64,000 nucleotides of DNA from Sthenelais limicola (lineage: Eukaryota > Annelida > Polychaeta > Phyllodocida > Sigalionidae), in assembly GCA_942159475.1 (NCBI GenBank), contig OW804094.1:55734966-55798965 (forward strand). Direction: 5' to 3'. The notes under the pieces are model-generated. The model saw only the letters and a list, made by a program, of their open reading frames with translations. It was not told the DNA's origin and did no database searches. This document shows, piece after piece, positions 58,965 through 64,000 of this stretch (its first letter is position 1; each line of letters begins with the position of its first letter). Both the position numbers and the translations under genes were made by a program.

Positions 58965-60299
58965 GTATATACTTCCCAGGTACTTCAATTACACCTCAAA
59001 GGCATCTCATCAACACTCATTTGCACGAAAAACAGGAACTCCATCAAAAAGCATGCGACAGTGATTAGAGCCCAAACATCGGTGCTGAAAGAGGTTAGGA
59101 ATGATGTTAAAGTAATCAAGGAAGAGGGGCAAAAGAAATCAGTGGTATATGATGCCCTAAAGAAACGAGTAGAGAAACAGGATGGAATAATACAAAGGCA
59201 GGAGGAGGAAATTAAGAGAATAAAGCAAACCATGGTATGCAAGGAGGACGCAGCGTTCATGAGAATGGCTGAAGAGGCCGAGAAAACTGAATATGACAGG
59301 CTTCAGAAGGATAAAGAGGCTCTGAAAAACTATCTTGTGATGGAAGGGATCCTCAGAAAAACATCGGAGGAAGATAAAAGGTATCTGCCGAAGGTTATGG
59401 AGAAAATCTACGAAGGCATAGGAGTACCACAAGGCCTAAGATACTATCGTGTGGGATACAATGTGAGGCTGGTTTTCAAAGAAACGTGGCAAGCAGAGGA
59501 CCTCTATGAGAGGAGATTTGATCTGAAAAACTTGTATTTTGACGGGGTGGGACCCCAGAAAGTGTGGATCAAAAGGGATCTACCGAAGGTGCTAAGAGAA
59601 AGGGTAGCACGAGCTGAGTTTATTGTGAGACAAGCTAGAAAACTAGGAACGTATGGTAAAGCCATGCAACATGAAGGAAATATCTATCTAGGAGAGGGGC
59701 AATATGCCCAGGTGATCCCACATGATAGGCTGGATCTGTTACCCAAGGAGTTAAGTCCAGTGGCGCATTCAAAAGTGGAAAATGCGGAAATATTTGCATT
59801 TTTTGGACATGATTCCCCTTTGTCCAATCATTATATAGCTGAGTTCAGTTTGAATGGTGTACAGTTCTCATCGATGGAACAGTATCTTACATACTCGTGC
59901 CTCAAAGCAACAGAGGATCCGACTAGGGCTAGAGCAACTCTCGACCTACATGACGTGGGTATGCTTAAAAAGACACTCAACTCGGAAAGGAACGCAGGGT
60001 CAAGAGTCTATAGGGAGTGGTTTGCAAGAATCAACACTATTGTTGAGGAAGGCCTGAGAGCCAAGGCAAAAGCCAACATACATGTGGTGGATTACCTAAT
60101 GAGCACAGGTGACAAGGCTTTGGCCGAGGCGTCTCCTACAGATAGCATTTGGGGTGTCGGAATTGGGCTGAAAAACCCTGATATTTTCGATAAAAGCAAA
60201 TGGCCCCAGGAGGGTAATATCATGGGTGCCCAGTGGACCAAACTCAGAGAGTCCATAAAAACGTCAAGAACGGCCAAGAACAAGACCGCGAAAGTTTAG
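58965..60299 (+). CDS. LINE ORF1: coiled coil, RRM-like, C-terminal RNA-binding and NADAR domain
   Basis: The frame is open from 58965 (after TAA at 58962) to TAG at 60297-60299. No ATG occurs before 59232, so the true start is missing or upstream of a truncation. Counting from 59061 as residue 1: residues 1-90 form a charged heptad-rich coiled coil; about 90-165 (Y-L-V-M-E-G-I ... V-R-L-V-F) resemble the L1 ORF1p RRM; about 166-222 (V-W-I-K-R-D-L-P-K-V-L-R-E-R) match its C-terminal domain; 243-400 form a NADAR domain. L1 ORF1p is a trimeric RNA chaperone that coats LINE RNA, and usually ends after the C-terminal domain at about 340 residues. The extra domain is in the same frame with no stop, frameshift or intron. 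Basic residues close the protein. Confidence 0.88.
   Translation, partial: VYTSQVLQLHLKGISSTLICTKNRNSIKKHATVIRAQTSVLKEVRNDVKVIKEEGQKKSVVYDALKKRVEKQDGIIQRQEEEIKRIKQTMVCKEDAAFMRMAEEAEKTEYDRLQKDKEALKNYLVMEGILRKTSEEDKRYLPKVMEKIYEGIGVPQGLRYYRVGYNVRLVFKETWQAEDLYERRFDLKNLYFDGVGPQKVWIKRDLPKVLRERVARAEFIVRQARKLGTYGKAMQHEGNIYLGEGQYAQVIPHDRLDLLPKELSPVAHSKVENAEIFAFFGHDSPLSNHYIAEFSLNGVQFSSMEQYLTYSCLKATEDPTRARATLDLHDVGMLKKTLNSERNAGSRVYREWFARINTIVEEGLRAKAKANIHVVDYLMSTGDKALAEASPTDSIWGVGIGLKNPDIFDKSKWPQEGNIMGAQWTKLRESIKTSRTAKNKTAKV
59787..60260 (+). other. NADAR (YbiA/DUF1768) domain within LINE ORF1
   Basis: The domain spans residues 243-400 (numbering from 59061). Family landmarks appear in order: F-F-G-H-D-S-P-L-S-N-H-Y (247-258); S-S-M-E-Q-Y with Glu273; L-K-A (281-283), the site of the family's conserved K-A; W320 in R-E-W-F; L-M-S-T-G-D-K-A-L-A-E-A-S (346-358); D361 and W364-G365 in P-T-D-S-I-W-G-V-G; and G-N-I-M-G followed by L-R-E-S (385-398). 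These are the positions conserved in YbiA-type N-glycosidases. Known members hydrolyse N-glycosidic bonds, in riboflavin intermediates and in ADP-ribosylated guanine. Because the acidic and tryptophan residues are kept, the domain is probably catalytically competent; its substrate in a retrotransposon is unknown. Confidence 0.85.
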
Positions 60300-60346
60300 T
60301 GAACGGAACATTGCCGAGCTGAGCCTCTCTCTGAACAAAATCCAAG
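60300..60346 (+). other. ORF1-ORF2 intergenic spacer (47 nt)
   Basis: Forty-seven bases separate the ORF1 stop from the first ORF2 ATG. A TGA in the ORF2 frame at 60332-60334 rules out simple readthrough fusion from upstream in that frame, so ORF2 needs reinitiation or another unconventional start, as in L1. Confidence 0.7.
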
Positions 60347-63300
60347 ATGGAGGACAACAACACAGATTCGGCAACGATGCAGGAAACAAATCAAGGAATA
60401 CCGTCCCTGCTGATAATTGACCAGGAAAAAAACACTAATCTTAGCTTTATATCATTAAATGTGAATGGTCTGAGCCAGATTAAAAGGAGAAAAGCTGTCC
60501 TAACTAAATTAATAGAGAAGAAAAGAACTATCGTGGCGCTACAGGAAACACATAGCTGCACGGACTCGGAGACCATATGGCGCGGACAGTGGCCTGGCAA
60601 GCTATTCTGCAGCCATGGGTCGTCGAACAAGGGTGGTGTAATGATTTTATTCTCCCCAGACTTGGATGTTAATATTATTCAAGATAGAAATGATCAAGAG
60701 GGGAGATTTGTATGTGTTGTTGTAGAAATATACGGAGCGAAGTTATGTATTACATCGTCATACTTTCCGAATGCATGTTTCGCCAAAAAACAAATTGATA
60801 TGTTCACGAAGGTGGGTGCAGTTCTCAATGAGCTAGATTATGACAGTCTAATTGTCATGGGAGATTTTAATTTGGAGTTAGATGGGGATCCGAGAGATAA
60901 GGCTAGAGTTAAATGGTCGGAGTTTTTAAACGAGTTTGAATTATGTGATGTGATGGCGGAATTTGATGTAACGGGTCACACATGGAGGAGAAAGCATCAA
61001 ACATCGAGATTAGATTATATTTTTATACAAGAAAATTTAAGAGTGAAGGTGTTAGACGCGTATTCAAAGATAAATACATCCTCCGACCATAAGGAAATAC
61101 ATCTGGTCTGCTCGGGGGGGGAGGGGGGAAGGGGAAAAGGTTATTGGAAATTTAACAATAAACTTCTGTGTAGAGAAGAATATGTTGAAGGGGTAAGAGA
61201 GATAGTGAAGGAATACGAATTCTCAAAAACTAATATCAGTGACAGTTTTAGATGGCATATAATAAAGAACGAATGCAAAAGTCTAGCTGTAAGAATGAGT
61301 GTTCAGGATGCTAGGATAAAGAGAAACAGAGAGAACGAGTTAAAGGTCAGATTATCCGAATTGGATCAAATACATGTTCTTAGTGATGAAGAGATAGATG
61401 AAATGAAAAACATCAGAAATACCTTGGAAGATAGTGAGCTAGCTAGAGCTGAGGGAGCACTATTTAGGGCTAAGGCAACCTGGGCTAGGGCGGGTGAAAG
61501 GCCCACTAAGTTCTTTTTACAGCTCGAAAGGAAAAATGGGAAAAAGAAGTCTATCAATAATATGTTTGTTGGAAATAAATTAACCAATGATATTACTAAG
61601 ATAGTGAAGGAAGGTAGGGAGTATTATAGTGAATTATATAAACGAAACGTAATAGATAGTCAGAGCGCCGAACCATTTTTACAGAACATGGATGCCAGTA
61701 TAGATGAAAAACATCATGAGAGATTGTCAAGAAAGATCAGTGAACACGAGATCTGGCTTACAATTAAGCAGATGAATGATGGTAAATCCCCTGGTCATGA
61801 TGGATTGTCTGTCGAATTTTATAGATACTTTTGGCCAGATATAAAGGGGATATTTTGTAAAATGGTAGCGGAGGTGGAGAAAAACAAAAAGATGTATTGG
61901 GACCAATATCAGGGCATCATTTCTGTGATACCAAAGAAGGACGTGGACATACGATATTTAAAAAACTGGAGACCCATTACTCTACTCAATGTCGATTACA
62001 AGATCATTTCGAAAGTCATTGCTGAGAGAATCAAAGGAGTAATTAGCGAGGTTATTGATGAAGACCAGTATGGCTTTATGCCCAATAGATACATAGGGGT
62101 CGCGGTAAGAAGGATTCATGACATTTTAAGCTACCAAAAAATGAAGGGAAAGGGGGGAAGAATAGCCACTGTGGATTTCCAAAAGGCTTATGATTCCATC
62201 AATTGGGACTTTTTGTATCGAGCATTGGCAGCCTTTAATTTCCCCGAATATATTATCGACTGGGTTAAAACTTTATTATCCGGTTCTGTAGCATGTTTCA
62301 CGAACAATGGGCATATGTCGGATTTCTTTGGTGTACAGAAAGGTGTTAAGCAGGGTGACCCAATATCACCATATTTGTTCACGATTGCGGTTGAGTTTCT
62401 ATCTAATTATATAAGAAAAGAAGAGAGTGTTAGAGGTATTGTTACAGGGAAAATCGAGCACAAAATAGTGCAATATGCTGACGACACCACTATTTTCACA
62501 GCTGACGAAGACTCAATGGGGAAAGTAATGGATATTATTCGAAAGTTTGGGGAAGGGTCGGGACTCAGACTAAATTTAACTAAGACAAAGGGTATAAAAA
62601 TTGAGAAAAAAGCACTTAATAACGATAAGAGCTGTGGAATTGATTGGGCGAATTCGATAAAAATCCTGGGGATACACATATTTAATCCTTACTGCAGGGA
62701 GAATGAGCCCAGCAAGAACTATGAGTCGGCGTTAGCTAAGATGAGGGGTGTCGTTGGAGTCTGGGGGGCAAGAAATTTGTCTCTCAGAGGTAAAACATTA
62801 GTAAACAATACATTGATTTTGCCTATAATACAACATGTAATTTCCGTTGTTCATCTAGATAAGAACATTGTCAAGGAGATAAACAAGATGACTAAGGTTA
62901 TGATGTGGGGATCGAGAAATGTGAAAATCAGCTTCGACTTCATGAAACAAAGCTATGAAAATGGAGGGCTGAAGGTCAGATGTGTAGACGAAATAACAAA
63001 AGCAAACAGAATCAAATGGATTCAGAGAATGTTGTATGGAAAACAGCATAAATGGGTTGGGATATTAGAAGCGTTTCATCAAGAAGATATTAGGAAGATA
63101 CTTGCCTGTAAAAACATGCCACAGATATCATTAAGTGTGTTCTATACAGATATTTTTAAAGTGTGGAATGAGGTCTATTATGATAACGAACCAGTCTCAG
63201 GTCTTGAAGTCTATGTAGAAAGATTATGGAACAACAGAAATATTCTAAAGAAAGAAAAACCGATTCAAAACGATCATTGGTTAGAGAGTGGTATCGAAAC

Positions 63301-64000
63301 AATAGGTGACCTGTTAAACGATGAGAAGAAGATCATGTCTGTAAACGAATTAAATGTGAAATATAACATACACTGCGATATAAGTGATAGATTAAAACTG
63401 GTGGCTGCGATCCCCAGAAAATGGTTACAAATGGTGGCAAGGGAAAGTTTTGTGATACCAAAGAAAAAGTATATTATGTTCAAAATCAACAACAAATTGC
63501 TGAAGGTTGAAGACTTGTTAACCAAGAATGTTTATGCGGAGTTGGTAAAGCAGGTGAACCCAGACTATGAAAAACTTGATAGTTGGGAAAGTCTTCTGAT
63601 AGAGGATAAATTTGTTAGTTCAGAAAAAACCTGGAAAGAGAAATTTGTTATACCGAACAAGAGCTATGATGTACCAAAATGGCAGTCGTTACAATATAGG
63701 ATCATACATAAAACGGTGGGATGTAATGTGTATTTGACTCAAATCAAATTTAAGAACAAAATATCATGTGATTTCTGTCCAGAAGAAGATACTATTTGTC
63801 ATTTCTTCGTTAACTGCAACAACCAGAGTTTACTGTGGAAAACCTTAAGATCTTGGTTTCAGAGAACTGCCTTAATTAAAGGTTTTAGACCGAGTGAGTT
63901 GAATTTAACTAACATCCTCCTTGGATACAGCGGTAAGAGCCCTCAGAGAGATTTTATTAATTGGTTGTTTTCTGCATTGAAATGGTATATATATAGGCAG
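60347..64000 (+). CDS. LINE ORF2: endonuclease, reverse transcriptase, CCHC knuckle (partial 3')
   Basis: The frame starts with ATG and is open for 1218 codons to the window edge. The endonuclease keeps the L1-type catalytic set: N40 (S-L-N-V-N-G), E67 (A-L-Q-E-T-H), D173 and N175 (M-G-D-F-N), D223 (R-L-D-Y-I-F) and D247-H248 (S-S-D-H). G-Y-W-K-F-N follows. The reverse transcriptase runs from about 480 (K-S-P-G-H-D-G) through N-W-R-P-I-T-L-L-N, Q-Y-G-F, D610 in V-D-F-Q-K-A-Y-D, K-Q-G-D-P-I-S-P-Y-L-F and Y-A-D-D at 710-713. A C-x2-C-x7-H-x4-C knuckle starts at C1141. The enzyme nicks the target and primes cDNA synthesis on the nicked strand. Length fits L1/Tx1 ORF2, so the stop is probably just past the edge. 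All catalytic residues are present. Confidence 0.95.
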   Translation, partial: MEDNNTDSATMQETNQGIPSLLIIDQEKNTNLSFISLNVNGLSQIKRRKAVLTKLIEKKRTIVALQETHSCTDSETIWRGQWPGKLFCSHGSSNKGGVMILFSPDLDVNIIQDRNDQEGRFVCVVVEIYGAKLCITSSYFPNACFAKKQIDMFTKVGAVLNELDYDSLIVMGDFNLELDGDPRDKARVKWSEFLNEFELCDVMAEFDVTGHTWRRKHQTSRLDYIFIQENLRVKVLDAYSKINTSSDHKEIHLVCSGGEGGRGKGYWKFNNKLLCREEYVEGVREIVKEYEFSKTNISDSFRWHIIKNECKSLAVRMSVQDARIKRNRENELKVRLSELDQIHVLSDEEIDEMKNIRNTLEDSELARAEGALFRAKATWARAGERPTKFFLQLERKNGKKKSINNMFVGNKLTNDITKIVKEGREYYSELYKRNVIDSQSAEPFLQNMDASIDEKHHERLSRKISEHEIWLTIKQMNDGKSPGHDGLSVEFYRYFWPDIKGIFCKMVAEVEKNKKMYWDQYQGIISVIPKKDVDIRYLKNWRPITLLNVDYKIISKVIAERIKGVISEVIDEDQYGFMPNRYIGVAVRRIHDILSYQKMKGKGGRIATVDFQKAYDSINWDFLYRALAAFNFPEYIIDWVKTLLSGSVACFTNNGHMSDFFGVQKGVKQGDPISPYLFTIAVEFLSNYIRKEESVRGIVTGKIEHKIVQYADDTTIFTADEDSMGKVMDIIRKFGEGSGLRLNLTKTKGIKIEKKALNNDKSCGIDWANSIKILGIHIFNPYCRENEPSKNYESALAKMRGVVGVWGARNLSLRGKTLVNNTLILPIIQHVISVVHLDKNIVKEINKMTKVMMWGSRNVKISFDFMKQSYENGGLKVRCVDEITKANRIKWIQRMLYGKQHKWVGILEAFHQEDIRKILACKNMPQISLSVFYTDIFKVWNEVYYDNEPVSGLEVYVERLWNNRNILKKEKPIQNDHWLESGIETIGDLLNDEKKIMSVNELNVKYNIHCDISDRLKLVAAIPRKWLQMVARESFVIPKKKYIMFKINNKLLKVEDLLTKNVYAELVKQVNPDYEKLDSWESLLIEDKFVSSEKTWKEKFVIPNKSYDVPKWQSLQYRIIHKTVGCNVYLTQIKFKNKISCDFCPEEDTICHFFVNCNNQSLLWKTLRSWFQRTALIKGFRPSELNLTNILLGYSGKSPQRDFINWLFSALKWYIYRQ

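Follow-up and report, generated by a model that had tools for sequence, protein, structure and literature searches.

Transposable elements that carry a NADAR domain are on record. According to PMC12477816, several Crassostrea gigas Tx1 families in Repbase appear to have NADAR in ORF1, where it is suggested perhaps to process RNA intermediates, and Ectocarpus Gypsy elements carry a YbiA-type NADAR in Pol, with blastp matches that are almost all bacterial and a possible horizontal acquisition proposed by the authors. Within the open-licence literature examined, and as far as the text available from it extends, this is the only source to mention NADAR in a retrotransposon; the main text of PMC11203168, on gastropod LINEs, contains no NADAR, DUF1768 or YbiA. 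A NADAR domain in a LINE ORF1 is thus, from PMC12477816, an already known kind of fusion, and the LINE class for which the original prediction knew of no description, while allowing for one in repeat libraries, had been noted earlier. NADARs tested biochemically hydrolyse guanine-ADP-ribose (PMC11543638, PMC11125620). PMC11543638 calls a lysine (K50/K95) essential if hydrolysis is to be efficient; K95R still hydrolyses in vitro, and cysteine is absent among the changes described in the available text of PMC11543638. PMC11125620 describes the part played by NADARs in animals as unclear, and animal RNA viruses embed the domain in their replicase polyproteins (PMC9503650).

The LINE described here lies at the end of a 64-kb stretch of Sthenelais limicola DNA (the window), in which Rfam and tRNA scans gave no match and of which positions 1-58900 contain 27 stop-to-stop frames of at least 110 aa. 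As can be seen in Table 1, a single open frame encodes a long helix, an RRM, a C-terminal domain (CTD) and NADAR, and is followed by ORF2 with endonuclease (EN) and reverse transcriptase (RT). That one frame joins an L1-type ORF1 to NADAR, as originally predicted, is borne out by the Pfam family PF08719, which matches residues 251-399 significantly (E 1.2e-17, 65.1 bits vs a cut-off of 35.1), by the YbiA/NADAR fold of this segment, and by alignment of LINE-1 ORF1p to residues 41-235 of the window model, with the coiled coil, RRM and CTD of the L1 superfamily. ORF2 likewise has the APE-type endonuclease and RT of that superfamily (RVT_1, E 4.7e-45), its best match among solved structures in the PDB being LINE-1 ORF2p (E 9.8e-74, residues 28-877). 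It had been called intact and directly downstream: it does adjoin ORF1, and both enzymatic domains are detected, while the frame itself continues beyond the window to a stop at ~64153 in the genome. The uninterrupted frame does not cover ORF1 as a whole. The window copy is 5'-truncated at 59026 and the native start is missing, the frame running from the first GTG over 59061-60299 (412 aa) and remaining open upstream to 58965. A second copy of the target-site duplication follows the A-rich tail just past the window end, duplication and tail both being features of L1-superfamily LINEs. Two full-length copies elsewhere in the genome, L009 and L010, retain open frames of 572 aa for ORF1 and 1272 aa for ORF2, and their 99.6% identity over ~6.4 kb suggests that the LINE was active recently. 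The window copy is a 5'-truncated insertion of this recently active L1-superfamily LINE, which is probably Tx1-like by analogy with the families in one source, PMC12477816.

Table 1. Features of the LINE insertion, in window coordinates.
Feature	Position	Strand	Remarks
5' target-site duplication copy	59013..59025	+	~13 bp, length blurred by A-rich tail; read from sequence by eye
5'-truncated LINE insertion	59026..64000	+	extends to 64377 in genome; 99.7% identity to full-length L009, L010
ORF1 remnant, in frame	59028..60299	+	~150 N-terminal residues of 572-aa ORF1 absent
Long helix, presumed coiled coil	59061..59321	+	residues 1-87 of 412-aa frame; AlphaFold helix 2-87
L1-type RRM + C-terminal domain	59322..59780	+	residues 88-240
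NADAR domain	59787..60260	+	residues 243-400
Cys280 codon TGC	59898..59900	+	at essential-Lys place (Lys/Arg in other NADARs examined)
ORF2	60347..64000	+	AP-type endonuclease, reverse transcriptase, weak zinc-binding C-terminus match

With active-site positions numbered after PMC11543638, the window equivalents of E43, K75, W89 and E125 are retained (E273, K303, W320 and E356). The residues singled out by the original prediction, E273, W320, D361 and W364-G365, are all present; they seem to make up the catalytic set of YbiA. Conservation was assessed over 42 sequences from the same genome (44 less two duplicate loci; they form 14 clusters at 80% identity), a subset of the loci behind the 103 ORF1 matches described below, and is high throughout: E273 in 42/42, W320 in 41/41, D361 in 39/41, W364 in 40/41 and E356, the catalytic Glu of the last strand (E125 of 8bau) by which the YbiA subfamily is recognized, in 41/41. 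The domain had been called complete, which is true of domain and fold and fails for the active site, where the essential lysine is replaced by Cys280 in 42/42 sequences, encoded by TGC in 30 and TGT in 12. Decay of the window copy as the origin of Cys280 is ruled out by this uniformity and by the two codons. Among the 23 database LINE ORF1s, 15 have K and 8 have R at the same position, which is K in five and R in four of nine class II sequences (see below), and K in 80/80 bacterial sequences (the best 80 of 530 loci, found with a K-bearing query), including 49/49 that lack the K-containing search pattern. On this alignment one normally essential active-site lysine is a fixed cysteine in this host's LINE branch. 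The branch lacks the essential basic residue of guanine-ADP-ribose hydrolase NADARs; we therefore do not file the window NADAR with these hydrolases, and reversal of guanine ADP-ribosylation is not to be assumed for it. Further changes surround Cys280. The R79 equivalent is Asn in 36/42 sequences, and the R93 equivalent is non-basic in 41/41 of them and in 22/23 database LINE sequences, its loss thus extending beyond the Cys branch. A basic residue occupies position 289 in 42/42 Cys-branch sequences vs 0/23 database sequences and 1/80 bacteria, and position 323 in 34/41 vs 0/23 and 15/80, and three extra residues precede W320 relative to the database LINE sequences. Basic residues at 289 and 323 may be compensatory, and the chemistry of the Cys-branch NADAR probably differs from the textbook one.

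The original prediction had named lack of a significant NADAR match or a wrong fold, confinement to a single copy, and neutral evolution of the NADAR codons with ORF2 under purifying selection as outcomes that would speak against it; none of these was found. Searching the 1.13-Gb genome with ORF1 gave at least 103 matches (40-100% identity); residue 395 or further is reached by 90 of them, and 84 have no internal stop. These counts are lower bounds from 101 scored out of 4168 first-look candidates. The Pfam NADAR search of the same genome placed 150/150 scored candidates above cut-off (150 of 5561 candidates scored), and in the control genomes it gave matches in 3/14, all three bacteria. Selection was examined among 18 own-genome representatives, for which 136 of 153 pairs have all three ORF1 domains; L023, the frame of which begins in the RRM, is presumably the representative lost from this set. 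NADAR pN is below pS in 136/136 pairs and below the pN of RRM+CTD in 112/136. Synonymous sites are saturated in all pairs but two, themselves still at dS 0.8-1.4, and in these two NADAR dN/dS is 0.04 and 0.07 vs 0.04 and 0.06 for RRM+CTD. For the three families in which ORF1 and ORF2 are both open, pN of NADAR is lower than that of the ORF2 C-terminus in 3/3 pairs and than that of RT in 2/3, the third pair having a NADAR pN above both RT and RRM+CTD. Nine class II sequences show pN below pS for NADAR in 36/36 pairs. NADAR thus recurs across many diverged families, and the purifying selection on it roughly matches that on the rest of ORF1.

Database searches yielded 23 ORF1-NADAR proteins (P0001, P0124-P0145) and two of other architectures: P0002, a 578-aa protein with NADAR in its middle and no RRM-CTD before it, and P0003, whose 610 aa include two NADAR stretches as well as a weak MYND finger (E 0.081). 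Among 29 pattern-matched stretches in IMG/VR, tblastn with a single-protein query, which finds close relatives only, confirmed 0 as relatives of the window ORF1. A second class of element is present in the host genome itself (class II: L054-L063, L066, L067); twelve of the 150 Pfam-matched loci were fetched, of which ten (L054-L063) belong to it and two hold solitary NADARs. Class II proteins begin with what looks by eye like a coiled coil, followed by RRM-CTD, NADAR and, in stretches that continue far enough, a C-terminal tail; their Pfam NADAR scores exceed those of the window's type, and their RRM-CTD is homologous to that of class I, to which the window's type belongs (hhalign probability 99.7). 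Two class II loci were followed downstream and both have an extra ORF, in 2/2 without a Pfam match. The element with an EN-RT ORF2 looks Jockey/CR1-like, a placement drawn from motif style, from the weak similarity of this ORF2 to that of the window (26% over 236 columns) and from the absence of a match to LINE-1 ORF2p at E <= 0.001; at the other locus, the 482-aa frame matched no Pfam family. Just upstream of the class II NADAR ORF1 in L061 lies a Gypsy-like RT fragment (RVT_1 + RT_RNaseH_2; L061 1-1101). The solitary NADARs, L064 995-1480 and L065 (C1:94854254-94856679, C1:66982187-66984612), are 162-aa frames beside ORFs without Pfam match, apart from one neighbouring ORF that matches a phage endonuclease family (E 1.4e-6); these loci look like another kind of mobile element.

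The distance from the leucine at the CTD end to the NADAR 'SN' motif is constant in 10/10 class II sequences and at 65/69 class I 'SN' motifs, the four exceptions including two sequences that start at the motif and one chance motif in P0137. NADAR trees place the window's type together with the LINE ORF1s from the databases (UFBoot 99-100). A NADAR tree that also takes in 32 of the 80 bacterial loci, and from which the incomplete P0136, P0145 and L058 were omitted, unites class I, class II, P0002 and one solitary NADAR in a single clade (UFBoot 97). The trees of RRM+CTD and of NADAR contain the same groups, namely Cys-type, K/R-type and K-type in class I and three in class II, but conflict on deep branching order. 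In class I the NADAR tree joins Cys-type with K/R-type (UFBoot 100) and the RRM+CTD tree K/R-type with K-type (94); in class II, L055/60/61 is joined by L054/57/59 in the NADAR tree (94) and by L056/62/63 in the RRM+CTD tree (98). Long branches or domain exchange could account for the conflict, so that strict co-inheritance of RRM+CTD with NADAR cannot be assumed. P0002, which we take to resemble a CR1-type ORF1, has its NADAR within the class II group and lacks RRM-CTD, and the domain may therefore also have moved alone. The simplest reading of these data would be one CTD-NADAR fusion, later present in more than one LINE class.

ORF1p coats LINE RNA, so that a NADAR domain on ORF1p would act locally; ORF1p is expected to trimerise on the element RNA, whereby each RNP would display NADAR domains on its surface. 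There the domain would cleave ribosyl or ADP-ribosyl groups from RNP nucleic acid or proteins and might so protect RNP or cDNA against host ADP-ribosylation, as a counter-defence. The pocket has been rebuilt in this branch (Lys to Cys280, three added residues, basic 289 and often basic 323), and its substrate or chemistry is in consequence probably unlike that of characterised guanine-ADP-ribose hydrolases. We lean, at slightly less than even confidence, towards such an RNP-borne N-glycosidase with altered specificity; the lysine lost in 42/42 sequences and the changed R79 and R93 equivalents count against it. These same changes at the lysine and the phosphate-contact positions, and the place of NADAR directly after the RNA-binding CTD, would suit a non-catalytic reader with ADP-ribose, NAD-capped RNA or nucleic acid as its ligand and a role in RNP assembly or localisation. 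We consider this somewhat unlikely, as E273, W320, D361, W364 and E356 are near-invariant over 14 families, more than binding alone seems to need. Another option is the breakdown of soluble signals derived from NAD, such as cyclic ADP-ribose variants, that the host would direct at mobile elements; PMC9503650 suggests this for the NADARs of phages. The fusion to a protein bound to RNA speaks for a local target, and PMC9503650 itself prefers macromolecular targets for eukaryotic RNA viruses, making this option quite unlikely here.

A metabolic role in riboflavin repair could be imagined, YbiA being a homologue of the window NADAR and NADARs being known to remove riboflavin-pathway intermediates; it is highly improbable, since a LINE RNP has no obvious use for such an enzyme and the lysine is changed. 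That NADAR is a neutral passenger captured by chance in one or a few copies, as the truncated state of the window copy might lead one to think, has a negligible probability: it is refuted by the genome copy count of 103 matches and by purifying selection, and the common CTD-NADAR junction and conserved active-site residues argue against it too. On a more far-reaching account, RRM-CTD-NADAR would be an ancient ORF1 cassette, fused once, exchanged between LINE superfamilies and spread by defending the RNP against host ADP-ribosylation, then re-engineered in this host's L1-type branch into a cysteine-type NADAR with new substrate or chemistry. This we judge unlikely, and the more so in view of the conflicting deep order in the trees of RRM+CTD and NADAR.

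As to what an RNP-borne N-glycosidase might act on, clam CARP-1 and butterfly pierisins are reported to attach ADP-ribose to guanine; erasure of these marks by NADAR is an unconfirmed assumption of the authors concerned, and a link between shellfish-type ADP-ribosylation and the present host may be drawn by analogy. Should NADAR indeed erase ADP-ribose from retrotransposon RNP or cDNA, this would be direct evidence that nucleic-acid ADP-ribosylation counters animal mobile DNA, and the LINE NADAR would be the transposon counterpart of viral macrodomains. Since K, R and Cys all occur at one position among LINE NADARs, with many copies in a single genome, these domains make up a natural mutational series on the NADAR lysine.

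The Crassostrea gigas Tx1 LINEs are like the window LINE in having NADAR within the ORF1 protein, and receive a single mention in the available text of PMC12477816, which there analyses neither their residues nor selection nor copies; in the open-licence literature examined, neither the Cys-type branch and the selection on it nor the pair of LINE classes was found described. The Ectocarpus Gypsy elements of the same source are also retrotransposons with NADAR, but LTR elements that have it at the Pol N-terminus. Nematode SNA-3 (PMC9303266) is an animal NADAR protein in RNA metabolism, an RNA-processing protein in which the homologous residues matter, with the authors' caution that folding may be disturbed; it differs in being a host gene with three NADARs rather than a transposon. 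Human LINE-1 ORF1p (2yko/2ykp) shares coiled coil, RRM and CTD with the window ORF1 and has no NADAR. The NADAR fold is common to the window domain, Phytophthora nicotianae NADAR (8bau) and E. coli YbiA (2b3w). The equivalents of 8bau E43, K75, W89, E125, D130 and W133 are kept, whereas K50 corresponds to Cys280, R79 to Asn307 and R93 to Ile324, in a domain that is here fused to ORF1.
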